The notes beneath the pieces are model-generated. The model did no database searches. It was not told the DNA's origin and saw only the letters and a list, made by a program, of their open reading frames with translations. Positions 5,584 through 20,895 of a stretch of DNA of 21,143 nucleotides are shown here, in pieces; the first letter of the stretch is position 1; every line of letters starts with the position of its first letter. The position numbers were made by a program, and so were the translations under genes. Source of the DNA: a virus; IMG/VR virus record IMGVR_UViG_3300032895_000395, positions 1 to 21,143 of that record, one strand, 5' to 3'.

Positions 5584-6124
5584 CCTCACCGCCGGCGTCT
5601 GCAGACGCGTTCGGGCGCAGGGCCATCAGGCGGCGACAAAGCGCGTCCGCTTCCCGCTGGAGGATCTCTTGAATGCGCTTCCGATCCTTGACGCCATAGA
5701 GGTGCCCGGTCAGCTTCGCAGGCATCGACAGGATTGAAGTGCGCAGAGCGCTGGATACCCGAGCCATTGCCGCCTTCGCGTCGGCGATCGCTACAACCTG
5801 GCCCCGCTCGCGCGCCAGCTTTATCTCCAGCAAGTCGGCTTCTTTCTTTACCTTGCGGAGAACGGCTTCGTCGTATGTCTCCTCGTCGCGCGAGGGCACC
5901 GAGACGCCCATACTTCCACGACTTCCAGCAAGCTCAATGCGATATTGGACATACCACTCTCGCACCGCTGGCCACGAGAAGCGGCGCCCGCGTCCGTCTC
6001 CGGAACATGGCAAGTCATTGTCTTTTATATAGTTGCGAACCATCCGGGCCGAGACACCCAGGAGCTCCGCTACATCCTCTAACTCGAGAGCCGAGTAGGT
6101 GGATGGAGTTTCAACAGAAGGCAT
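5576..6124 (-). CDS. terS: Terminase small subunit, Nu1-like
   Basis: This 182-residue protein has an N-terminal winged-helix/HTH (residues about 12-38, VAELLGVSARMVRNYIKDND), a linker, a long helical stretch rich in charged residues (EAVLRKVKKEADLLEIKLAR) and a C-terminal segment with LRTSILSMPAKLTGHLYG, a pattern shared with lambda Nu1-type proteins. It would recognise the packaging site and hand the DNA to the large subunit. The gene overlaps the large subunit gene by a few bases. The stretch of about 105 bases between this gene and the upstream HNH gene holds no supported gene; a weak promoter-like TTGGCG / GATAGA pair at 17-base spacing is present there but is not convincing. Confidence 0.88.
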   Translation of the reverse strand: MPSVETPSTYSALELEDVAELLGVSARMVRNYIKDNDLPCSGDGRGRRFSWPAVREWYVQYRIELAGSRGSMGVSVPSRDEETYDEAVLRKVKKEADLLEIKLARERGQVVAIADAKAAMARVSSALRTSILSMPAKLTGHLYGVKDRKRIQEILQREADALCRRLMALRPNASADAGGEDD

Positions 6125-6230
6125 ATCCGGTCTCTATCGCGGAAGTGGAAATGACCGCCAAAAAATCTGGCGCTAGAACGAACGCGCAGTGGCGCGTCAC
6201 CCGCGGATTGCGAAAGCTGGCGGAGTACCT

Positions 6231-6986
6231 TTAGACTTTAGCGCCCTTAGCGAGATTGTCAGCCGCCCACATCGGTTGAAGATTTGGAAGAGCCCAAGCG
6301 CGTAGAAGCTGGGCCTTGTCGAACAGATCGAACGCGGCGAGGGGCACAACGTGGTCGATATGTATCCGCCCAGCCAAAAACTCCTGCCAATTCATTCCTT
6401 CGGTAAACCGCTGCTCCAGATGCTCCCTGAGATCGCTGATGGAATATCCGAGTAGGTTCTCGACTGCCTTGGATTGCCCACCCCTCCTGATTGCATCGCG
6501 CATTAGATCGCACAGCTTGGCGCCGGGCTTTTTCCGTTTATGTTGGCGACGCATGCGCTCGCGGAGGTTGAATTCCGGATCAATTCGATAGCGGATGCGA
6601 TACCTCTCTCCCACGGATAGCCCTTGCGCTAGCCATGGCTTTGCGCGTACCAAATCGTCTTTAGCCGCAACGCGTGCAGCTTCTTGTGCTTCTTTTTGTG
6701 CGCACCGTTGATGTCTCCGCTCAGCGCGAATGCCATACTTGCTGCCGCGCTTCTGTGCCTCTTTGATTCGACTATTGCGCCGCTCCTGTAGCCGCTGCTC
6801 CGGAGTTTGACGTGCGCGCCTTCTCCGCATTCGCTCTCCGGCTAGACTGCGAAAATAATCAGAGTTTCTTGCTTGGCGCTCTCGCCACTTGACGACGCAG
6901 CACGCCTTGCACGTCAGTCCCTTACTCGGAAACGCATCTCTTGGTAGAGCGAGTCCACACCCCTTGCAGCCTTTTTCCCGGGTCAC
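6231..6986 (-). CDS. HNH endonuclease with N-terminal zinc finger
   Basis: The 251-residue protein starts with a Cys4 motif (Cys7, Cys10, Cys26, Cys29) followed by a very basic helical region of about 120 residues. The C-terminus carries an HNH nuclease core: IHIDHVVPLAAFD (Asp211, His212), LPNLQPMWAADNLAKG with Asn235 and Asn244. An HNH gene beside the terminase genes is common in phages that cut DNA at cohesive ends, where it helps the terminase cleave; it could also be a free-standing homing endonuclease. The start is a GTG at 6986, the only start codon in the frame after an in-frame stop; it has no well-spaced ribosome binding site. Just upstream lies a palindromic, operator-like sequence. 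Confidence 0.9.
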   Translation of the reverse strand: MTREKGCKGCGLALPRDAFPSKGLTCKACCVVKWRERQARNSDYFRSLAGERMRRRRARQTPEQRLQERRNSRIKEAQKRGSKYGIRAERRHQRCAQKEAQEAARVAAKDDLVRAKPWLAQGLSVGERYRIRYRIDPEFNLRERMRRQHKRKKPGAKLCDLMRDAIRRGGQSKAVENLLGYSISDLREHLEQRFTEGMNWQEFLAGRIHIDHVVPLAAFDLFDKAQLLRAWALPNLQPMWAADNLAKGAKV

Positions 6987-7017
6987 CCTTCGGTTATGCG
7001 GGTAACCCTGGGTTACG
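6981..7017. promoter_or_regulatory. Palindromic operator-like repeats upstream of HNH-terminase genes
   Basis: The bases 7002-7016 read GTAACCCTGGGTTAC, a perfect inverted repeat with 7-base arms and one central base. A related 8-mer GGTCACCC begins at 6981, exactly 20 bases from GGTAACCC at 7001, so the sites would lie on the same face of DNA. The site covers the start of the HNH gene, in the 80-base gap that separates the small-gene region from the packaging genes. It could be a repressor or activator binding site, or an RNA hairpin hiding the weak HNH start. Function is inferred only from symmetry. Confidence 0.4.
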
Positions 7018-7068
7018 CGCTAATCTGATGGATACAGCTGTTCGCGGGTGTGCTACATTGACACAAGA

Positions 7069-7293
7069 TCAATAGCCGCTGCGCACGGTTGGGTGGGTTG
7101 TCAGATTATCGGCGAGCCACTGCTGGATATGGTCTGGATGGTAACGAACGGACCGACCCACTTTGATATATGGTGGCCCGATCCGTTCAACCCTCCACCT
7201 ACGCAGGGCTCCCTCGTTCACACCTAAAATCAGCGACACCGCGCGAGTATCAAGCAACTTTTGGGATATATCAAGGTCTCGGCGGTTACTCAT
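7069..7293 (-). CDS. Excisionase-like helix-turn-helix DNA-binding protein
   Basis: The 74-residue protein has the small MerR/HTH_17 fold used by phage excisionases and many phage regulators: LLDTRAVSLILGVNEGALRRW, then a wing GPPYIKVGRSVRYHPDHIQQWL. The start is the ATG at 7293, with GGGAG six bases upstream; a longer frame upstream is open, but only the part from this ATG resembles the family. It overlaps the end of the upstream small gene by 8 bases. No integrase is in the window, so a role as regulator is as likely as true excisionase. It is the last gene before the gap that leads to the packaging genes. Confidence 0.8.
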   Translation of the reverse strand: MSNRRDLDISQKLLDTRAVSLILGVNEGALRRWRVERIGPPYIKVGRSVRYHPDHIQQWLADNLTTHPTVRSGY

Positions 7294-7510
7294 CCTGTCT
7301 CCCGGCGATCTCCTGAAGATGCTCCAGCGTGAGGATGAAATCACCCGCAAAGGTCGGGATAGCGACACTCCCATATTGCGCCAACTGCTCTCCAATTCGG
7401 CTAGCGTACGTGTCTATATAGTCAGCAACCTCTTCCTGAATGCGAACCTCGCTGTCGGCTATGCCCTTATCAATCCGATGAATTATCTCCCGCATGTCCA
7501 TCTCGTTCAC
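7286..7510 (-). CDS. Small hypothetical protein, acidic and helical
   Basis: The frame encodes 74 residues, with a charged N-terminal helix (REIIHRIDKGIADSEVRIQEEVADYI by composition, about residues 7-32) and a C-terminal part ending LTLEHLQEIAGRQDE. No family is recognised. Its stop overlaps the start of the HTH gene, so the two are probably co-translated. The start could be GTG 7510, or the ATG codons at 7501 or 7495; none has a clear ribosome binding site. Confidence 0.6.
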   Translation of the reverse strand: MNEMDMREIIHRIDKGIADSEVRIQEEVADYIDTYASRIGEQLAQYGSVAIPTFAGDFILTLEHLQEIAGRQDE

Positions 7511-9605: not shown

Positions 9606-9769
9606 TTCTCCACCTCGAGACTCTCCGGTTTACTATGGCCAGGTTCGCACTTGTCCGTTGAATGCATCCACACCCCACAACTCTTGCAATCTGGTTGCCG
9701 TTCTGACTTCACAACAGACCCGCAAAACCAGCAGTGCCATTCCCTCACCGTCTCAGGCTGCTTCTCCAT
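9602..9769 (-). CDS. Zinc-ribbon microprotein (55 residues)
   Basis: The ATG at 9769, with GAGG seven bases upstream, opens a 55-residue frame: residues 13-31 hold two CxxC pairs (WHCWFCGS; DCKSCGVWMH), then a further Cys41 and His45. This is a compact zinc-ribbon likely to bind nucleic acid or protein. It overlaps the end of the helicase-methyltransferase gene by 17 bases and the next gene by four, so it is embedded in the same transcript. Confidence 0.72.
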   Translation of the reverse strand: MEKQPETVREWHCWFCGSVVKSERQPDCKSCGVWMHSTDKCEPGHSKPESLEVEK

Positions 9770-12269
9770 CTCTCACCTCATCACTCATCAGACTAAACAA
9801 ACTCGGCATCTCTTTCTCCTGCTCTGCCGCCTTCAGGTACGCGCAGCCGTCCAGGAAGTACGCCGGATTCAACTCCACGCCCATCCCGCGCCGATTCTTC
9901 AGCAACGCGCGATACGGAACCGTCATCAACCCACCGAACGGGTCGAACACCAGCTCACCCTCCATCGAGAACTGCTCAATCACCCGGTCCACGATATCGA
10001 ACTGCAGCGGACACAGGTGCATTTCCTTGCCCTTGGCGTGCTGCGCTCCGTTCAGCGTGCGCATCCGCGTCACATCGCTCCAAACCTCGTCATTGTGGCT
10101 CTGCGGCTGCAACAGCATGAACGTGACCGGCAGAATCCCCTTTGCCTCCAGCGCCTCGCCCAGCTTCACATGCTGCTCAAAGCTGTACACCTCGTTCAAG
10201 CTGTAGTCGCGGAACATCTTGAAGATCTGCGCGTGGTCCAAACCCTCCAGCTCCGCCGGCGTCAGCAGCCGCTCACCGCTGCTTCGCGTAAAGCCATGCG
10301 CGTCAATCTGCCAGCGCGAGCGCGAGTACTTCGACTTCTGCTTCACCACCGGATTGTCGGCGTAGCTATTGCTCGTGTCCGAAGGTGGTTTGCGGAACAG
10401 CAGCAGGTATTCTGGCATGCCGCAACCCATCTTCGTGCCATCCTTGCACTGCTCCGTCCATCCCAGCCGATAGGTCTGGTTGTTCTCCCGAACGACGTCT
10501 GTCACGATCGTCTTCATGCCCATGTACGCGAAGCCGTGCTTCGTATAGTGCTCGATGCAGCGCGCGTGGAACGGATAGACCGTCTGGAAGCCCAGCCCCG
10601 TCATCCCGCCCGGCACAATCCGGTCCTTCACGTGAATCGCCGCAATGCGACCGGGCTTCATCACCTTCAGCAGATTCGGCGTCAGAAAGTCCATCTGCTC
10701 AAAGAAATGCTCGTTCGAGTCGGTATGGCCGAAGTCGTTATAGCTCGGCGTGTACTCATACTGCGTGCTGAACGGAATCGACGTGACCAGCAGGTCCACG
10801 CTGTTCTCTTCCATCCGCGCCGTCTCTTCCACGCAATCGTTATTCACAGCCGTCCAGCCGCGGCCGCTCACCTCCACGCGCTCCACGCCCAGGCTGCGCT
10901 CCAGTGCGCTCGCCATCGCTTCCTTCGCCAGTCCGTACTCCCGAATGATCTCGCTCATCTTCCTGCTCGTCTCCTCGTGTTTGGCCCACTTGGCCTGCAG
11001 CAACTCCAGCACCTTGCGCTCGCTCTCGGCGTGGATGATGTGAATCTCCACCTCCTCGGTCTGCAGAAAGCGGTAGATGCGGTGAATCGCCTGGATAAAG
11101 TCGTTGAATTTGAAGCCAATGCCGACAAAGATCGCTTTGTGGCAATGGCGCTGGAAGTTGCACCCGCTGCCCGCGATGACCGGCTTCGCCGCAAGGTATT
11201 GAATCTTGCCATCGCTGAAGTCGAGAATCGCCTGCTCGCGCTCGTCAAGGTCTTGGCTGCCGTACACACTGACAGACGCCGGGATCGCTTGCTCAATCGC
11301 CGCGCGTTCTGCCTCGAGGTCGTGCCACAGCAGAAAGCTGTCCGCCGGCGACGCCGCCAGAATCTCCTGCATCTTCGCCACGCGCGCTGCCAGCGTATCG
11401 CGCTTCTCCCGCGCCGCGTCCACCACGCCCAGCGACGCTGAGCGCATCAGAGCCACCTGCCCGCTCGTCTCAATCTGCGCCTGCGAGTGGTCGACTGCGA
11501 CCTCGTGATAGATCACCTTCATCGGCGGCAGCGCATAGCCCTCGTCGGAGTAGCCAAGATCGCTCGGCTGTTGCAGGAACAGCGCCCAGCTCGCCACCCA
11601 CAGCCAGAACTCGCGCTCTTTATGCGGATGGATGGTCAGTTCGTCGGCTTTCTCGCTGTTGCGCTTGAAGAAGCGCGTCTTCGCCTCGCCCACATCCATA
11701 ATGCCGAGAAACGCCGAGTACGCGAGGATCTCGATGTAGTCGTTCGGGCTCGGCGTCGCCGTGGCCACGAAGCGGTACGGAACCGGCTCAAACAGCCGCA
11801 TGAACTCGCGGAACGTCTTCGTCCCACCGAATCCGCGCAGCACGCTCGCCTCGTCGAGACTGGCAACCGTGAACTGCGCGGGGTCCAGCTTCCCATCGCG
11901 GACCGTCTCGTAGTTCGTCAGATAGATGCCCGTCTCGCCACACTCCGCAATCGATCGCACGAACGTCACCGGCACGCCAAGCTTCTCCGCGTCGCGGCGG
12001 AATTCCTGGCGCACACCGAGCGGCAGCACGATCAATCCGCGGCCGCCAACCTTTTCGAGCGTCAGCCGCACCGCCTCAATCTGCATGAACGTTTTGCCCA
12101 GCCCGAACTTCGCGAAGATCGCCCGCCGTCCGCCGCGCACCGCCCACAACACCGTGTCGCGCTGGTGCGGTTTCAGCAGTGGATGCACGGCCGAGGCCTC
12201 GATGCCCACCCCGAGGTCCGCTGCCACACACTTCTTCGCCGCCAGAAACTCTCTGTACATCTGAATCAT
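9753..12269 (-). CDS. SF2 helicase-DNA methyltransferase fusion protein
   Basis: The 838-residue protein joins two enzymes. Residues about 30-430 form an SF2 helicase/translocase: Walker A KFGLGKT (54-60), DEAS at 139-142, a TATP motif at 170-173, and QAIHRIYR (393-400) as motif VI. Residues about 465-815 form an amino-methyltransferase of the beta order: motif IV as TSIPFS (496-501) first, then the segment HLCPLQFDIVDRVI, then SAM-binding motif I DPFGG (776-780). This class makes N6-methyladenine or N4-methylcytosine. The usual catalytic motif is (D/N/S)PP(Y/F/W); here the second position is Ile. There is no visible nuclease domain. The ATG at 12269 has GGAGG in front at good spacing and overlaps the cytosine methyltransferase stop (ATGA). 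Likely role: modifying phage DNA against host restriction. Confidence 0.9.
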   Translation of the reverse strand: MIQMYREFLAAKKCVAADLGVGIEASAVHPLLKPHQRDTVLWAVRGGRRAIFAKFGLGKTFMQIEAVRLTLEKVGGRGLIVLPLGVRQEFRRDAEKLGVPVTFVRSIAECGETGIYLTNYETVRDGKLDPAQFTVASLDEASVLRGFGGTKTFREFMRLFEPVPYRFVATATPSPNDYIEILAYSAFLGIMDVGEAKTRFFKRNSEKADELTIHPHKEREFWLWVASWALFLQQPSDLGYSDEGYALPPMKVIYHEVAVDHSQAQIETSGQVALMRSASLGVVDAAREKRDTLAARVAKMQEILAASPADSFLLWHDLEAERAAIEQAIPASVSVYGSQDLDEREQAILDFSDGKIQYLAAKPVIAGSGCNFQRHCHKAIFVGIGFKFNDFIQAIHRIYRFLQTEEVEIHIIHAESERKVLELLQAKWAKHEETSRKMSEIIREYGLAKEAMASALERSLGVERVEVSGRGWTAVNNDCVEETARMEENSVDLLVTSIPFSTQYEYTPSYNDFGHTDSNEHFFEQMDFLTPNLLKVMKPGRIAAIHVKDRIVPGGMTGLGFQTVYPFHARCIEHYTKHGFAYMGMKTIVTDVVRENNQTYRLGWTEQCKDGTKMGCGMPEYLLLFRKPPSDTSNSYADNPVVKQKSKYSRSRWQIDAHGFTRSSGERLLTPAELEGLDHAQIFKMFRDYSLNEVYSFEQHVKLGEALEAKGILPVTFMLLQPQSHNDEVWSDVTRMRTLNGAQHAKGKEMHLCPLQFDIVDRVIEQFSMEGELVFDPFGGLMTVPYRALLKNRRGMGVELNPAYFLDGCAYLKAAEQEKEMPSLFSLMSDEVRDGEAA

Positions 12270-13364
12270 CCCAACTCCTCCACCGTCCGAATGCGCTGCC
12301 CGATCCATCGCACGACGGGCACAGCCTTTGAATTGCCGAGCGCCTTGTATCGAGGCCCGTCCGCCGCTGGCTTCTTTCGGAACGGCACGAGCGTGTAGTC
12401 GTCGGGGAAGCCCTGCAGCCGCTCACACTCGCGCGGCGTGAGACGGCGCACAGCCATGGAGTGCGCCACCATTCCAGGCACTCCTCCACCACTCCGCGAC
12501 GCCGAGAATGCAATCGGCACGAGCGGCGTACCGCGCCCTGTCCCATCCTCGCTCGCATCGAATCCGTCGGCGCGTAAGGCGTGAGCCACGTCAGGGAAAC
12601 CCCCAACGGGCACGAATAGGGGATGCCCCCCGTTGATGTGCTGATCCTCAAGGCCCATCTTGTCGCCGAAGTGAGCGTTGAGTGTGGAAGCGACGTCTGC
12701 TGGCCACTTCTCGGCGATCAGGCCGCCGTCACAGTCGAAGTCTGTTCCGAGCCCACCGCCTGCAGAGCTGCGCGAAGGGATGCTGGGAGCGACTTGCCGC
12801 GCTTCTCGGCGCGGCGGAGGATTCCCCGACAGGCTGTGGCGCTCAAAAAGTACCGCTGCGGCACATCGCCAGTCTCCAAGATGTCCGACAAGGAAGACGC
12901 GACGGCGGCGCTGGGGTACTCCAAAGTGCTGAGCGTCAAGGATTCTCCAGGCGCACTGATACCCGAATTGGCCCAGCAGCCCGAGGAAGATTCCAAACGC
13001 CCGTCCTCCGTCAGCCGACAGGACGCCGGGCACGTTCTCCCAAACCACCCAACGGGGCCGAAGCCGGCCAGCCAGTCGAGCAAACTCGACCGTGAGCGCA
13101 CCACGCTCTCCATTGATTCCGGCTCGCAGTCCGGCGACGCTGAAGTCCTGGCAGGGAGTTCCGCCGACGAGAAGATCGATAGCTGCATAATCACCCGGTT
13201 GAATCGTGGTGAAGTCACCGTGGTTCGGGACTTCGGGGTAGTGGTGCTTCAGCACCGCCGATGGGAACGGCGCAATCTCGGCAAGGAATTCTGGTGTCCA
13301 ACCCCAGCGGATGCCATGCGACCGTGGCGCTCTCGATTCCGCTGCAAACACTGCCGTACCTCAC
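12266..13364 (-). CDS. DNA (cytosine-5) methyltransferase, N-terminus frameshifted
   Basis: The main frame shows C5-methyltransferase motifs: motif IV GGTPCQDFSVAG with catalytic Cys, motif VI ENVPG, motif VIII QRRRRVF, motif IX RECERLQGFPDDYT and motif X GNSKAVPVV. Motif I is missing from that frame. It is present in the next frame: from GTG 13364 the codons read RYGSVCSGIESATVAWHPLG, the usual motif I block, up to 13302. The main frame takes over at Trp (13300), so removing one T at 13300-13301 restores a 365-residue protein. GTG 13364 has GGAGG four bases upstream and overlaps the previous stop (GTGA). As written the gene is disrupted, unless ribosomes slip or the base is a sequencing error. 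The target-recognition region lies between motifs VIII and IX; its sequence target cannot be read. Confidence 0.9.
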
Positions 13365-13882: not shown

Positions 13883-14040
13883 AATCCCACCCCGTCAGCT
13901 AGCTCCGTCAGTTCGCGACAGATGACATACTCACAGTCGTCTTCGGGTCCGTTATGACTGCAGTGGATGATTCGCCTCGCCCACAAGAGCACGTGCACGA
14001 TCCGCATGCGGTCGACCTTCTTATCTCGAACTTCCGCCAT
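13870..14040 (-). CDS. Small hypothetical protein (56 residues)
   Basis: The ATG at 14040 forms a TGATG overlap with the stop of the initiator-like gene, and the frame ends 13 bases inside the next gene. The 56 residues are helical and charged (MAEVRDKKVDRMRIVHVLLW), with Cys27, Cys36 and Cys41 that might bind metal. It fills the space between two secure genes and has matching codon usage. Function unknown. Confidence 0.65.
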   Translation of the reverse strand: MAEVRDKKVDRMRIVHVLLWARRIIHCSHNGPEDDCEYVICRELTELADGVGLWRD

Positions 14041-15128
14041 CACGCCACCGCCGCTTCTGCCGGCTCATTCGCCAACCGCTGCCGCACCCAGTTCGGAGCC
14101 TCCGCCTCGTACCGCGGAGAGCCGCGCGATCGCACCACGCGCCAGTACGCCAGAACATCCTCGTCCTGCTTCGCCAGCAGCTTCTTCGTCTGCTCCGCGC
14201 TCGGCGCCGCCGCGGTCCGCATGCCCACCTGCGCTTCCGCCCGCTTCAGCGCCTTCGGCTTCCCAAACGCATCCAGCGGGCCGAGCTCGTACCCCGGCAG
14301 ACTCGCAATCCACTTGCGCGGCCGCTCCGCCAGGTTCACATCGCTCGCGCCGCGGTTACGCAGCATGGCCTCGAATCGCTCGATCGTGATGCCGGGCAGC
14401 GATCGCAACAGGTCCGCGAGGTGGGCATTGTCGCCGCCGTTCCACGCCGGATCGTTGCCCGTCCAGGCGCGAAAGGCTGCGAAGAGAGCGTCTTTGCAGG
14501 TGCCGTGCAGCGGATGTGCTTCGCTCTTCGCCTTGGCCGGTTTTGGTGCGGGCGCGGCGTCAGCCGTGCCAGTCTTTTCATCAACACCTACACCAACGCC
14601 TACACCAACACCAACACCAACATGGTCAGAAACTTTTTCAACGTCTCCAGAACTTTCTAAAACTTTTTGAAAAGTTCTAGAACTCTTCGGAATGTTCTGG
14701 AATCCATGTGCGAGGTCGTCAGAGTTGCGGCGCTGCTCATTCTCCAGCCGGATCTTCTCGACATAGGCCGCGCGGTACGCCTCATGCTCCCGCTCTGGCG
14801 GTGCTGGCGTCTGTCGGTCAGCAACGGAGCGGTACTGCCCCAGCATCTTCGCCGGTATCTCCCACTGGGCCCAGGTTGAGCCGTCTGGCGCACGGTAGAC
14901 GAACAGCAGGAAGTTATCGTGGAACTCCCGCATCCACTTGGTGAGCTGCTCGCGTGTCGGCTTCGTGCGAAACGAGCCATAGACCTCGCTCAGCAGCCAT
15001 TCCATGCTCATCTTGAATCGCCCGAAGCTGTTCGAGGCTGCCAGCAGGCGTGGAAAGTGGAGCTGCGCTTCATCGCTGCACGCGCGAAGCCGGTCTCCGT
15101 GAAGTAGCCCTTGAGGATCAATCAACAT
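14040..15128 (-). CDS. Replication-initiator-like protein
   Basis: This 362-residue protein has an N-terminal region (about 1-110) like those of phage replisome organisers: LIDPQGLLHGDRLRACSDEA, a helical block ending in WLLSEVYGSF, and a wing-like YRAPDGSTWAQWEIP. A flexible middle (about 147-200) includes seven Val-Gly pairs encoded by a tandem DNA repeat. The C-terminal domain (about 205-362) is helical with RFEAMLRNRGASDVNL and ends with a charged helix. Its position beside the sliding clamp gene, and the origin-like sequence inside it, support a role like lambda O, but no helicase loader is seen in the window. The ATG at 15128 follows the upstream stop directly. Assignment is by position and weak likeness. 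Confidence 0.6.
   Translation of the reverse strand: MLIDPQGLLHGDRLRACSDEAQLHFPRLLAASNSFGRFKMSMEWLLSEVYGSFRTKPTREQLTKWMREFHDNFLLFVYRAPDGSTWAQWEIPAKMLGQYRSVADRQTPAPPEREHEAYRAAYVEKIRLENEQRRNSDDLAHGFQNIPKSSRTFQKVLESSGDVEKVSDHVGVGVGVGVGVGVDEKTGTADAAPAPKPAKAKSEAHPLHGTCKDALFAAFRAWTGNDPAWNGGDNAHLADLLRSLPGITIERFEAMLRNRGASDVNLAERPRKWIASLPGYELGPLDAFGKPKALKRAEAQVGMRTAAAPSAEQTKKLLAKQDEDVLAYWRVVRSRGSPRYEAEAPNWVRQRLANEPAEAAVA
14582..14621. repeat. 12-bp tandem repeat (3.3 copies)
   Basis: The units CAACACCTACAC, CAACGCCTACAC, CAACACCAACAC and a partial CAAC lie head to tail, with one or two differences between copies. On the coding strand they give a run of Val-Gly pairs. They lie beside an AT-rich palindromic tract and may be iterons. 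Confidence 0.85.
14582..14690. other. Candidate phage replication origin inside the initiator-like gene
   Basis: The 12-bp tandem repeat (14582-14621) is followed at once by about 60 bases that are strongly AT-rich in an otherwise GC-rich window. That tract holds three related blocks AAACTTTTTC, GAACTTTCTA and AAACTTTTTG, an inverted pair around 14661-14676, and a perfect 12-base palindrome AGTTCTAGAACT (14673-14684). Iterons plus an AT-rich unwinding tract inside the initiator gene is the layout of the lambda origin in gene O. Origin function is inference. Confidence 0.45.
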
Positions 15129-15812
15129 TTAGGCCGCCCACTCTCTGTCTTGTTCGTACTCAATGCGGGAGCCGCGCATCATCTCCGTCAGCTCGCCCTT
15201 TAGCCACTCCTGATCGCAGCGCGCCAGATTCAAATCCTGCAGGTGCTCGCGCAGGAATCTCCGCACTGTGGCTGTCGAATAGATGCCGCCGTAAGGCTTC
15301 ATTCGACCGCGCATCGTCCATCGGTTCACGGTCGCCGCGTGCACACCGAGAGCCACCGCCAGCTCACTCACCGTGAATCCGTCATGGCTGACGCGGCAGG
15401 AGTGCCCGAGCTTGCACAACTTCAACTTCACCGCGTTATGCGTGCGACCCAGGCGCTGCGCGATCGCGGAGACGGGATGCTCGCCGGCCATATCGAGCAG
15501 CAGAGTGAGCTCCGCACTCGACCACGGCTTACGCTCCGCCTCAAAGCGCAGGCCGAGAATCCGGCAGCGCCACTTCACCGACTCCGTAGGGATGTTTGTC
15601 AGCTTCCGGAACGCTGCCAGCTTCTCACTGAGCGCCTGGCGTGTTTTCTGCGCATACGCTTCGCGCAGCAACGCGTCGCGCTCCGGCGTAAAGCTGTATT
15701 TCTGCCGCGTTGGATGGTTGCGGCATATCGGACAAAGACGGTCCTTCGGCGACGCGATCCGCTTTCCGCAGCCGTCGCACTCCACGGCATTCTTTGGGAT
15801 ACCTTTCGGCAC
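15129..15812 (-). CDS. Zinc-finger protein with Myb-like and HTH domains
   Basis: The 227-residue protein has a Cys4 zinc finger (Cys12, 15, 27, 30), a helical region YSFTPERDALLREAYA, a second Myb/SANT-like block (PWSSAELTLLLDMAGEHPVS, near 97-136, including AIAQRLGRTHNAVK) and a MerR/HTH_17-type domain near residues 146-190 (FTVSELAVALGVHAATVNRW then GGIYSTATVRRFL). It is very likely a DNA-binding regulator. The GTG at 15812, with GGAG seven bases upstream, is preferred; a longer frame would overlap the sliding clamp gene. Its stop is directly followed by the start of the initiator-like gene (TAAATG), so the two are probably made together. Confidence 0.8.
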   Translation of the reverse strand: MPKGIPKNAVECDGCGKRIASPKDRLCPICRNHPTRQKYSFTPERDALLREAYAQKTRQALSEKLAAFRKLTNIPTESVKWRCRILGLRFEAERKPWSSAELTLLLDMAGEHPVSAIAQRLGRTHNAVKLKLCKLGHSCRVSHDGFTVSELAVALGVHAATVNRWTMRGRMKPYGGIYSTATVRRFLREHLQDLNLARCDQEWLKGELTEMMRGSRIEYEQDREWAA

Positions 15813-15844
15813 TGCTCTTCTCCATCTGCGTTGAGTAAAGGTCT

Positions 15845-15871
15845 GCGACGGGCTCCCACTCCGCCCGTCGC
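15845..15871 (-). other. Perfect 9-bp hairpin after dnaN
   Basis: On the minus strand GCGACGGGC (15871-15863) pairs perfectly with GCCCGTCGC (15853-15845) around a 9-base loop. It lies in the 71-base gap after the dnaN stop, one of the few gaps in this packed region. There is no U-run after it, so it is not a standard intrinsic terminator; it could protect or punctuate the mRNA. Confidence 0.6.
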
Positions 15872-15883
15872 AATTCGGGTGAA

Positions 15884-17005
15884 TCAAATTTTCATCGGCA
15901 TGACAACGTACTCGAAGCTCTCGCCTTCGACCGGAGAGCACGAGATCCATAGCGGCTGCCGGCTGGAAGTGTCGGCAAAGCGAAGCGCCACGTCGCCATC
16001 GAGCCGCGTCAGAACGTCCAGCAGATAGTTCGCGTTGAACCGCGCCTTGAACGGCTCAAAGCTATCCGCAGACGCCGCCGAAACATCGTCATCGATCTCG
16101 CCAGCCTGCTCCGAGGCCGACTGAAAGTGAATCGACTCCGGATGGATGGTGAGTGTGACCGCGAAACTCCGCTGCTCCGCGAAGCTGACGCAGCGCCGCA
16201 GTGATCCGACCATCTCCGCTGCATTCACCCGCACAATCACCGCCGACTGCGACGGCATGACGCCGCGGTAGTTCGGAAACCGCTTCACCAGCTTGCGTCC
16301 GCCGATCTCGATCGATCCGGTCGAGTCGCCAAACGAGGCGTAGACGTTCTCTCCGCCATCGCGCAGCTCAATCTTCGCGGCGCCGTCGCCGACGAGCTTG
16401 CGCAAGGCATTCACCATCGGGAGCGAGAGAAGTACGTCGTCCAGCTTCCCGTCCGTGTGAACCGAGTAGCGCGTGAGACGGTGGCCATCGACCGAAACCA
16501 TGCTCAGCTTGCCGTCGCGGACCTCGAGTAGCGCACCGGGAACGCCGCCGTTCTTCGTGTCGTCCTCCGGGACCGCGAAGGTGAAGTCAAGCATCCGCGC
16601 GAATTGCTCCGGCTTGAGAGCAAGCGCAGCCTCTCCAGCCAAAGCACCGACGCTCGGAAACGACTTCGGGTCGAGAATCGGAAGCCTGGTGCGCGCCTTG
16701 CCGCAGGTCAGCGAGGCGCGGCGATCGTCAACAGCCGAGAGCTTCACGCTGTCGCCGGCCAGCAGCTTGGAGAACTTCTCGAGCGTGAGCGCAGGCAGAA
16801 GCAATGGCTCTCCTGGCTGACCGGCCGCCGCGAGGCGGACCCGGATGTAAAGCGTCAAGTCGGTGGCCGTGAACTCCAGAAACTCCGCGTCTTTCTGCTG
16901 CACACGGATGGTTCCGAGCACTGGAATGGTCGTCTTGCGCTCCACGGCGGGCGAGACGGTGGCGACGGCTTTCTGTAACGAACGAAGAGGAACCGCGATA
17001 GTCAT
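15884..17005 (-). CDS. dnaN: DNA polymerase III beta subunit (sliding clamp)
   Basis: The 373-residue protein has the three-domain layout and length of bacterial beta clamps: an N-terminal MTIAVPLRSLQKAVATVSPA, IPVLGTIRV, FTATDLTLYI, a middle with LSMVSVDGHRLTRYS, then GRKLVKRFPNYRGVMP, and the typical ending YVVMPMKI. The last residues form part of the pocket that binds polymerase and other partners in bacterial clamps. A phage clamp would tether the host or phage polymerase to phage DNA. No polymerase gene is in the window. The ATG at 17005 directly follows the stop of the zinc-finger gene, with AAGGAG a little far upstream. Downstream lies a strong hairpin. Divergence from a host copy cannot be judged here. 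Confidence 0.95.
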   Translation of the reverse strand: MTIAVPLRSLQKAVATVSPAVERKTTIPVLGTIRVQQKDAEFLEFTATDLTLYIRVRLAAAGQPGEPLLLPALTLEKFSKLLAGDSVKLSAVDDRRASLTCGKARTRLPILDPKSFPSVGALAGEAALALKPEQFARMLDFTFAVPEDDTKNGGVPGALLEVRDGKLSMVSVDGHRLTRYSVHTDGKLDDVLLSLPMVNALRKLVGDGAAKIELRDGGENVYASFGDSTGSIEIGGRKLVKRFPNYRGVMPSQSAVIVRVNAAEMVGSLRRCVSFAEQRSFAVTLTIHPESIHFQSASEQAGEIDDDVSAASADSFEPFKARFNANYLLDVLTRLDGDVALRFADTSSRQPLWISCSPVEGESFEYVVMPMKI

Positions 17006-19658: not shown

Positions 19659-20071
19659 GCTGCCACCTCGTTCTGCATCGCCATCGCGACACCGGGATTC
19701 ACCGGCTCCAGCAGCCGGTACTCAAACAACCCTTTCGCCACATGCCGCCGCTCCACGCGGTAGCCAAGCTTGCGCAGGTTGCGGAGTTGCGCCTGGACGC
19801 TGTTTTCCGGGAAGCCGACGCGCGGATGAGCCTTACGCAACTCCGCCGTCAGCTTTTGAATCGTGCGCCACTTCCCGTCCAACGCGTGCTCGCGGATGCA
19901 ATCGATCTGCGTCGCCAGCCGCGTGCGATCGCGAGGCTCGACGTATTCCGGCCCATCAAACGGAGCAGGCTGGGGCGCGGGCGATGGGGGCGCCTCGATC
20001 CTGCGCCGCGTCGGAAGCGAGGCGAACGGACCGTCCAGTTCGCCTTCGGGCACAAAGTCGAAGAGGTTCAT
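19655..20071 (-). CDS. Winged-helix DNA-binding-like protein
   Basis: The 138-residue protein has a proline-rich N-terminal part with little structure and a C-terminal domain (about 58-120) that reads as a winged helix: CIREHALDGKWRTIQKLTAE, then ENSVQAQLRNLRKLGYRVER and a wing AKGLFEYRLL. This suggests DNA binding, perhaps regulation of the early genes. The ATG at 20071 forms an ATGA overlap with the stop of the DUF7666-type gene. Its exact role is unknown. Confidence 0.75.
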   Translation of the reverse strand: MNLFDFVPEGELDGPFASLPTRRRIEAPPSPAPQPAPFDGPEYVEPRDRTRLATQIDCIREHALDGKWRTIQKLTAELRKAHPRVGFPENSVQAQLRNLRKLGYRVERRHVAKGLFEYRLLEPVNPGVAMAMQNEVAA

Positions 20072-20895
20072 TCGGACACCTCCACGAACTTGCCGCCGCG
20101 CAGCATGTAGAAGGTGTCGGCCTTGATTCGCTTCCCATCAACACGCTTCGTCTGCACGTCGATGCGGCGCCACTCGTAGCCGCGCTGTTCCCACTCGGCG
20201 AGCGTCAGCCAGCAGCCCTTGGCACCACTCGCTTTACCCTCAATGCCGAGAGATACAGCGCAACCCTCTTCGCCGGTGTTGGTGGCCGCGCTCCGGTAGC
20301 CGGTGTTGGTGGCCGCGCTCTGGTAGCCGGTGTTGGTGGCCGCGCTCTGGTAGCCGGTGTTGGTGGCCGCGCTCTGGTCGCCGGTGTTGGTGGCCGCGCT
20401 CCGGTTGCCGGTGTTGGTGGCCGCGCTCCGGTTGCCGGTGTTGGTGGCCGCGCTCTGGTCGCCGGTGTTGGTGGCCGCGCTCCGGTCGCCGGTGTTGGTG
20501 GCCGCGCTCTGGTAGCCGGTGTTGGTGGCCGCGCTCCGGTTGCCGGTGTTGGATTCCTTCGCGTTCGTGAAATCAACTTTTTCCAGAATGAATTTCACGC
20601 CGGCGCCGATCAGATGCGACAGACTGATCTCAGCGCCAATACGCAGCGTCTTCGCGGCGCGCTTTGAGTCGCCGCAGCTCTCCGGCGCAGAAACGTCCTC
20701 GCCTTCGACCTCAGCGAATCGAGACGACGGATCGTAGTAGCCGAAGATGTCGAGCGGAAACTCGCAGAAGTGGAAACCACTCTTACAAAGCGAGACTCGG
20801 CCAGTGTGCGTGTAGCTCTTCCCCGGCTCATATTGGAAGCCGCGGCACTGGAAGTTCTTATCGAAACCCTTGAATCCCTTGACGGTATCGCTCAA
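20068..20895 (-). CDS. DUF7666-type protein with ten 9-residue repeats
   Basis: The 275-residue protein starts like DUF7666 proteins (VKGFKGFDKNFQCRGFQYEP, then LCKSGFHFCEFPLDIFGYYD) and ends with GCWLTLAEWEQRGYEWRRID and TFYMLRGGKFVEV, also typical of the family. Between them, from about residue 118, ten copies of NTGxxSAAT follow each other, most likely forming a beta-helix-like solenoid. The x positions are Asn, Asp or Tyr followed by Arg or Gln. The function of the family is unknown. Translation starts at a TTG (20895) with GGAGG six bases upstream, overlapping the previous stop. Confidence 0.85.
   Translation of the reverse strand: MSDTVKGFKGFDKNFQCRGFQYEPGKSYTHTGRVSLCKSGFHFCEFPLDIFGYYDPSSRFAEVEGEDVSAPESCGDSKRAAKTLRIGAEISLSHLIGAGVKFILEKVDFTNAKESNTGNRSAATNTGYQSAATNTGDRSAATNTGDQSAATNTGNRSAATNTGNRSAATNTGDQSAATNTGYQSAATNTGYQSAATNTGYRSAATNTGEEGCAVSLGIEGKASGAKGCWLTLAEWEQRGYEWRRIDVQTKRVDGKRIKADTFYMLRGGKFVEVSE
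20273..20552 (-). repeat. 27-bp tandem repeat, ten full copies
   Basis: Ten units begin at 20273, 20300, 20327, 20354, 20381, 20408, 20435, 20462, 20489 and 20516, with a 10-base partial copy after them. Twenty-five of the 27 positions are identical in all ten units. Only two positions vary: one is A, C or T and the other is C or T on the plus strand, and both change the encoded amino acid. Confidence 0.97.

Follow-up and report, generated by a model that had tools for sequence, protein, structure and literature searches.

The window analyzed here is a complete IMG/VR record, 21,143 bases of viral DNA that encode a portal protein, a terminase, a RecE-like/YqaJ exonuclease and a sliding clamp. 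Its minus strand contains an initiator-like gene (14040..15128), an open reading frame of 362 amino acids with repeats in its middle. A Pfam search with the 362-aa product returned zero families at E≤1, the best hit of a PDB sequence search was too poor to be of use (E 0.37), and matches to PHROGs were weak (phrog_12005, unknown, E 0.1; phrog_5810, ‘replication initiation protein’, E 0.13). The upstream neighbor (15129..15950, minus strand) encodes an HTH and zinc-ribbon-like protein (phrog_323, E 6.8e-16), beyond which lies a DnaN-like beta sliding clamp gene (15884..17005, minus strand; PF00712, PF02767, PF02768; phrog_947, E 2.1e-51); the initial annotation had the clamp gene adjoining the initiator-like gene, but the HTH gene sits between them. 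No helicase-loader gene was recognized in the window.

The minus strand also encodes an 851-aa protein (9753-12308), an apparent helicase-methylase fusion in which a weak helicase C-terminal match (346-414) precedes an N6/N4 DNA methylase domain (504-818). A DUF7666 gene (20068-20895, minus strand) contains a 27-bp unit repeated 10.4 times (20272-20552; Tandem Repeats Finder, TRF, score 485), giving SAATNTG-type repeats of nine residues; a similar 27-bp repeat opens the related loci L122 (1-166) and L124 (1-135).

In the AlphaFold2 model of the initiator-like protein, an N-terminal and a C-terminal domain are separated by a segment predicted to be disordered (residues 130-212, pLDDT <50), and it is here that the repeats fall. 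The N-terminal domain (residues 13-100; 14829..15092, minus strand; pLDDT about 60-80 across most of it) is a predicted winged helix, putatively iteron-binding, and is kept in all ten genes compared below. Its structural matches are all of winged-helix type (Z 5.7-7.5, none >8), with unrelated regulators tied, so that for the predicted fold they represent a common arrangement and no family assignment; matches to ORC2, Fur and LmrR were taken as this shared arrangement only. The structures 4pql, 5kbj and 4pt7 (Z 6.5-6.7, 16% identity), which we take to be of RepA_N type, rank level with unrelated winged helices, and a RepA_N Pfam match is absent from the window protein. RepA_N-type plasmid initiators have their origin within the rep gene. 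The C-terminal domain (residues 205-293; 14250..14516, minus strand), delimited by hmmsearch, is common to L122 and to phage proteins with another type of N-terminal part; its profile matches the window protein, which is in the training set, at 4.7e-37, and L155, which is outside it, at 7.6e-21.

Two adjoining repeats in the middle of the gene

In coding orientation, the central part of the gene presents an AT-rich repeat block and then a hexamer array. The array (14582..14622, minus strand) was called by TRF with a period of 12 (3.4 copies, 89% matches, score 68) or, alternatively, with a period of 6 (6.8 copies, score 61). The 12-bp tandem repeat reported in the initial annotation is therefore a real array, but its true unit is the minus-strand hexamer GTTGGT/GTAGGY, which encodes (Val-Gly)n; together with TRF, its codon bias and its position relative to that in relatives mark it as a putative unwinding or loading element. 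When the whole window was dinucleotide-shuffled 150 times, one shuffle produced an array scoring 68 and 12 produced one scoring at least 54. By itself the hexamer array is uncommon, yet could have arisen by chance in a window of such size; that it directly adjoins a second array is the stronger point.

The second array, on the same strand (14625..14701), holds seven TTYNGAA-like sites, two exact and five with one mismatch, at successive spacings of 9, 11, 8, 12, 9 and 21 bp; TRF, motif count and stability suggest a block of putative iterons spaced by about 10-11 bp. The AT-rich tract is itself repetitive by TRF (14655-14702, period 20, score 54; 14651-14684, period 10, score 33). At positions 14628-14687 it is 70% A+T, the highest value of any 60-mer in the window (gene 38%, window 39%), and by nearest-neighbor energy this region is the least stable in the window at widths of 40, 60 and 80, while at a width of 100 the lowest-stability stretch is 14600-14699. 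AACTTT has six copies in the window, three of them in the tract (14631, 14651, 14661). Composition, stability and motif count thus bear out the 60-base AT-rich tract with AACTTT blocks as first described, in coordinates as well as features. The perfect 12-bp palindrome AGTTCTAGAACT (14673..14684), also first described there, does lie inside the repeat block, but is unremarkable alone, being one of four in the window.

Per step, the AT-rich block of the window is less stable than the hexamers (dG -1.252 versus -1.434). In L135, L136 and L124 it is the hexamers that are less stable than the upstream block, and lowest in the middle of the gene. The tract contains the least stable 60-mer of 38 kb in one longer relative (G002) and, on the hexamers, the third least stable 60-mer of 39 kb in another (G004). 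The window's stability minimum coincides with the putative iterons rather than with the hexamers, which blurs the assignment of roles, and the upstream block may here do both jobs, binding and melting.

Relatives and a natural exchange of domains

A protein search of viral_contigs with the window gene gave four stretches that fitted a pattern, none of them confirmed; tblastn with this gene against phage records found no relatives, and a search for relatives of the neighboring HTH gene gave none. Similarity of the tract DNA to phage records (356 records at E≤10, no consistent gene) was left unused. A scan of viral_contigs for Val-Gly-coding runs was dropped, the matches listed (L002-L121) being for the most part antisense readings of long ORFs, in their Pro-Thr linkers.

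Relatives were reached via the clamp, as homologs in the same neighborhood (L122/L123 and L124), and later searches added L129/L135, L136, L137, L138, L139, L140 and L141. The set used for comparison comprises ten genes, all with the N-terminal domain: the window gene, L122, L124 and L135-L141. Duplicates of counted loci (L123, L127, L129/L133/L135) were removed before counts were made, and L143, which matched only part of the N-terminal region, was excluded. The relatives of the window gene sit in Acidobacteriaceae prophages, L129 in Acidobacteriaceae bacterium TAA 166. Of 398 Acidobacteriaceae genomes, 25 match the profile at least in part, many of them by the C-terminal part alone, and only the N-terminal matches from those 25 genomes (L135-L141) joined the ten-gene set.

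The N-terminal profile matches the ten genes at E values from 2.6e-66 to 2.8e-23 (four of the ten are in the training set). Their C-terminal domains differ: the window gene and L122 have one type, L124, L135, L136, L137 and L141 another, and L138-L140 neither. Profile A3, representing the second type, matches these same five proteins and neither the window protein nor L122; in L124 the domain corresponds to phrog_1032, ‘replication initiation protein’ (E 1.1e-5). L124, L129, L136 and L137 thus have their C-terminal domain in common with phrog_1032 or DnaD-like replisome organizers, whereas the window gene and L122 have another.

Throughout the ten-gene set, the segment before the C-terminal part reads Val-Gly, Ile-Gly or a near variant, encoded by GTWGGT-type hexamers that are weak in L138, use GGG in L139 and are degenerate in L141. 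L139 and L140, two distant members in which the hexamer is kept as GTNGG, lack the TTYNGAA motif, and within the N-terminal family the hexamer is the better conserved of the two. The same hexamer is retained among homologs at <40% protein identity; its copies are near perfect, and their number differs between relatives. Relatives that keep the gene but have lost the repeats, which the initial annotation named as evidence against its proposal, were never found outright, but the degenerate array of L141, the weak one of L138 and the missing TTYNGAA of L139 and L140 qualify this result.

Where the same C-terminal domains are joined to other N-terminal parts, other repeats are found, ACAGGA in L142 and AGTGCC in L148, and likewise in the wider family described below. 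The repeats track the N-terminal domain across this swap of C-terminal domains, and the simplest reading would assign recognition of the DNA in the repeat region to the N-terminal domain. L148 combines a window-type C-terminal domain and a different N-terminal part with a long AGTGCC array coding Ser-Ala repeats. In L122, L124 and L129, an ORF in another frame overlaps the 3' end of the initiator gene (6445-6954, 5789-6301 and 6830-7381, respectively); a weak helicase-loader match (phrog_2289, E 0.098) was obtained with that of L124 only, and no counterpart was recognized in the window.

Codon choice in the ten genes is skewed within the tract. GTT or GTA accounts for 43 of 45 tract Val codons, versus 76 of 173 elsewhere in the genes (Fisher p 4e-11), and GGT or GGA for 60 of 69 tract Gly codons, versus 137 of 301 elsewhere (Fisher p 9e-11), pooled p-values that overstate independence because the ten genes are kin. 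Taken gene by gene, the preference for A/T-ending codons is significant (p<0.05) in eight of the ten but not in L139 (0.56) or L140 (0.07). For the upstream block the null was a set of synonymous-codon shuffles, made per gene with the protein unchanged, and the block exceeds it in lag self-match or TTYNGAA count (p<0.05) in 7 of 10 genes: self-match at lags 10/11/20/21 is significant in the window, L122, L124, L135 and L136, the TTYNGAA count in L124, L135, L136, L137 and L141, and neither in L138, L139 and L140. The window alone gives p 0.011 for self-match and 0.098 for the motif count. By eye, L139 and L140 contain other repeats, about 10-11 bp apart. Forty spacings from seven of the ten genes cluster at 8-12 and 18-21 bp, with R(10.5)=0.82, a purely descriptive value.

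Because A/T-ending codons are preferred and the repeats track the N-terminal domain, the constraint appears to act on the DNA rather than on a Val-Gly linker. The initial annotation took Val-Gly for a linker that the protein tolerates; given the codon bias and the domain swap, the stretch more likely arises as a by-product of repetition in the DNA. As to the DNA-level conservation that it proposed to look for in relatives, the choice of codons reveals constraint at the level of DNA, and the repeat blocks keep their place. The repeats are real, and the DNA element they form is probably functional.

Array order in a wider family of initiators

The phrog_1032-type C-terminal domain also occurs in Vibrio phage genes and in gp42 of Ruminococcus phage phiRgIBDN1, annotated as a replisome organizer, whose linker contains 11-bp TGTCAACC repeats and then GGTTA-type repeats. 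A scan with twelve such C-terminal domains gave 292 relatives; the analysis used the best 80, which form 61 clusters at 70% identity. A tandem array is present in the gene in 77 of these best 80 and in 59 of the 61 non-redundant initiators, at 1.85 arrays per kb in the gene versus 0.22 elsewhere in those loci; across the 61 clusters, 88 of 95 arrays sit in the linker. One further observation concerns L163 (Vibrio phage VPBES), in which the linker of a replication initiation gene (1955-2923) contains about 4.5 copies of a 27-bp unit.

Arrays were divided by period into helix-spaced (9-11, 20-22, 31-33) and short (5, 6, 12, 15, 18) classes. Both classes occur together in 18 of the 61 genes, and in all 18 the helix-spaced array comes first, 1-35 bp ahead of the short one, a test of order that is somewhat weakened by the choice of classes after data inspection. 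Short arrays are less stable than their own gene in 42 of 45 cases (p 2e-11), helix-phased arrays in 22 of 36 (p 0.16). The residues encoded at the array site vary (NP, TG, DK, VD, EK and others) while the DNA remains repetitive. A strand asymmetry of the short arrays (28 of 45 have a base at ≤5%, versus 2% of random 45-mers) was discarded, as it follows from hexamer repetition: about 62% of random hexamers are missing one base or more. A literature search, in which subscription literature was thinly covered, found no description of a short array after iterons as a general feature.

A candidate replication origin and its alternatives

Several mapped or annotated origins lie within initiator genes. 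Lambda O has four annotated iterons in mid-gene, then an AAAAGAA-like AT-rich sequence; lambdoid origins occupy the middle of O with iterons and an AT-rich region, and replacing the AT-rich region leaves O binding unchanged (PMC7466680). The layout proposed for the window gene resembles oriλ, in which the origin is likewise set midway along the initiator gene and iterons precede an AT-rich tract in the coding direction. Lambda iterons, however, are 18 bp long and about 20-24 bp apart, in contrast to a 7-bp motif at a spacing of about 10-11 bp, and in the window gene, unlike lambda, the putative iterons and the AT-rich stretch overlap, and what follows is a GT-rich array of hexamers. The Rep gene of Lactococcus phage Tuc2009, whose record notes that it ‘contains origin of replication’, likewise has, in the initiator linker, 11-bp repeats and directly after them a short-unit array (AGGAT x11), but differs in its N- and C-terminal domains, its repeat sequences and its low-GC host. 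In TP901-1 rep (annotated as experimental), with a similar layout, a 15-bp repeat precedes AT-rich short repeats. SPP1 oriL lies inside gene 38 and combines initiator-bound direct repeats with an AT-rich unwinding element (PMC6316719), like the repeats and AT-rich element of the window gene; SPP1 has a second origin elsewhere.

Plasmid iterons are generally helix-phased, and lambda iterons bind O dimers (PMC5043065); plasmid Rep proteins bind one strand of the unwinding-region repeats, every one of which is needed (PMC4081077). Iteron plasmids such as RK2 (TrfA), in which winged-helix initiators bind duplex iterons as well as one repeat strand, provide a model for the hexamer array, but an RK2-type origin lies outside the initiator gene, whereas the repeats of the window are inside it and strand-specific binding is only putative. 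DnaA-trio elements showed no sequence match by eye, and no link to them is claimed.

Comparison thus lends good support to a lambda-like candidate origin within the gene. The fixed order of the arrays, the parallel with lambda and the low stability of the short arrays suggest that the AT-rich block represents the iterons and the hexamers the melted, helicase-receiving part, and we put at roughly 0.78 the probability that this region is a phage replication origin, so arranged, in its own initiator gene. A lambda-like origin had already been proposed in the initial annotation; the proposal gains from the place of the repeats in relatives, the codon constraint and the order in lambda O and Tuc2009, but the roles of the parts probably need to be reversed. 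The AT-rich AACTTT/TTCTAGAA blocks look like iterons, being helix-spaced, motif-like and associated with the N-terminal domain, and the tandem hexamers, initially taken for iterons, occupy instead the position of lambda's unwinding tract.

We infer that the protein would bind the repeats and that replication would start here. The N-terminal winged-helix domain would bind the TTYNGAA-like iterons (14625-14701), spaced by 10-11 bp, and the initiator-iteron complex would bend the DNA and melt the adjoining low-stability DNA up to the GTWGGT array (14582-14622), whose exposed strand might then take other contacts of the initiator together with the helicase loader and helicase. Cumulative GC skew, also suggested in the initial annotation, lends no support: it has no minimum at the tract in the two longer relatives, G002 reaching a maximum 2 kb from it and G004 rising steadily; gene orientation confounds both.

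An origin with the roles exchanged, in which the initiator would bind the GTWGGT hexamers as iterons and the AT-rich block would unwind, overlaps with the leading account, since both make the region an origin, but we regard it as rather unlikely. It would suit the stability difference within the window, the greater uniformity of the hexamers as a repeat, and their better conservation, as GTNGG, in L139 and L140. Across the wider family, however, the phased array invariably precedes the short one, which corresponds in position to the AT-rich tract of lambda, instability is a property of the short arrays and not of the phased ones, and in L135, L136 and L124 the hexamers are the less stable element; in addition, a spacing of 10-11 bp fits stacked sites, whereas 6-bp spacing presents no single helical face.

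Winged-helix proteins can bind repeats to regulate their own genes, and the evidence assembled here is that of sequence comparison, so the region could instead be a site at which the initiator or another protein acts in transcription regulation or partition; the location in mid-gene, the low stability and the parallel with mapped in-gene origins speak against such a site, which we consider improbable. Somewhat less credible still is that Val-Gly serves as a flexible linker between two domains and that the AT-rich segment has merely a biased composition. The region is predicted to be disordered and simple composition is common in linkers, but the codon skew goes far beyond the rest of the genes, the DNA of the wider family stays repetitive under quite different residues, and units of 10, 11, 20 and 22 bp do not divide into whole codons, so that the protein does not repeat along with them. 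Neutral expansion by polymerase slippage, which would account for near-perfect hexamers of varying copy number, simple repeats being prone to grow in disordered regions, is the least plausible reading of all in view of an array density about ninefold that of the flanking DNA, the constant order in 18 of 18 genes and the retention of one hexamer at <40% protein identity.

Read as an origin with iterons followed by a melted hexamer array, the region would be of a known kind, the dipeptides coded by its hexamers a variant, and the general two-part layout the part of interest. We suggest, tentatively and at somewhat less than even odds, that many tailed phages have an in-gene origin of this design, in which helix-spaced iterons read by the N-terminal domain precede a strand-specific melting and helicase-loading array of 5-6-bp units, the dipeptide repeats of the initiator (Val-Gly, Asn-Pro, Thr-Gly, Asp-Lys and others) being its by-products. 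If this is true, an origin and the target of its initiator could be read from the initiator linker alone. Origins have been mapped in few phages; should the layout hold, a single gene would suffice to predict the start site and the binding repeats for a large fraction of phage genomes, uncultured ones such as this 21-kb fragment among them, and the low-complexity dipeptide stretches of phage initiators would be explained as DNA signals. The layout would also offer matched pairs of DNA-binding domain and target in which to study short single-strand repeats in helicase loading.
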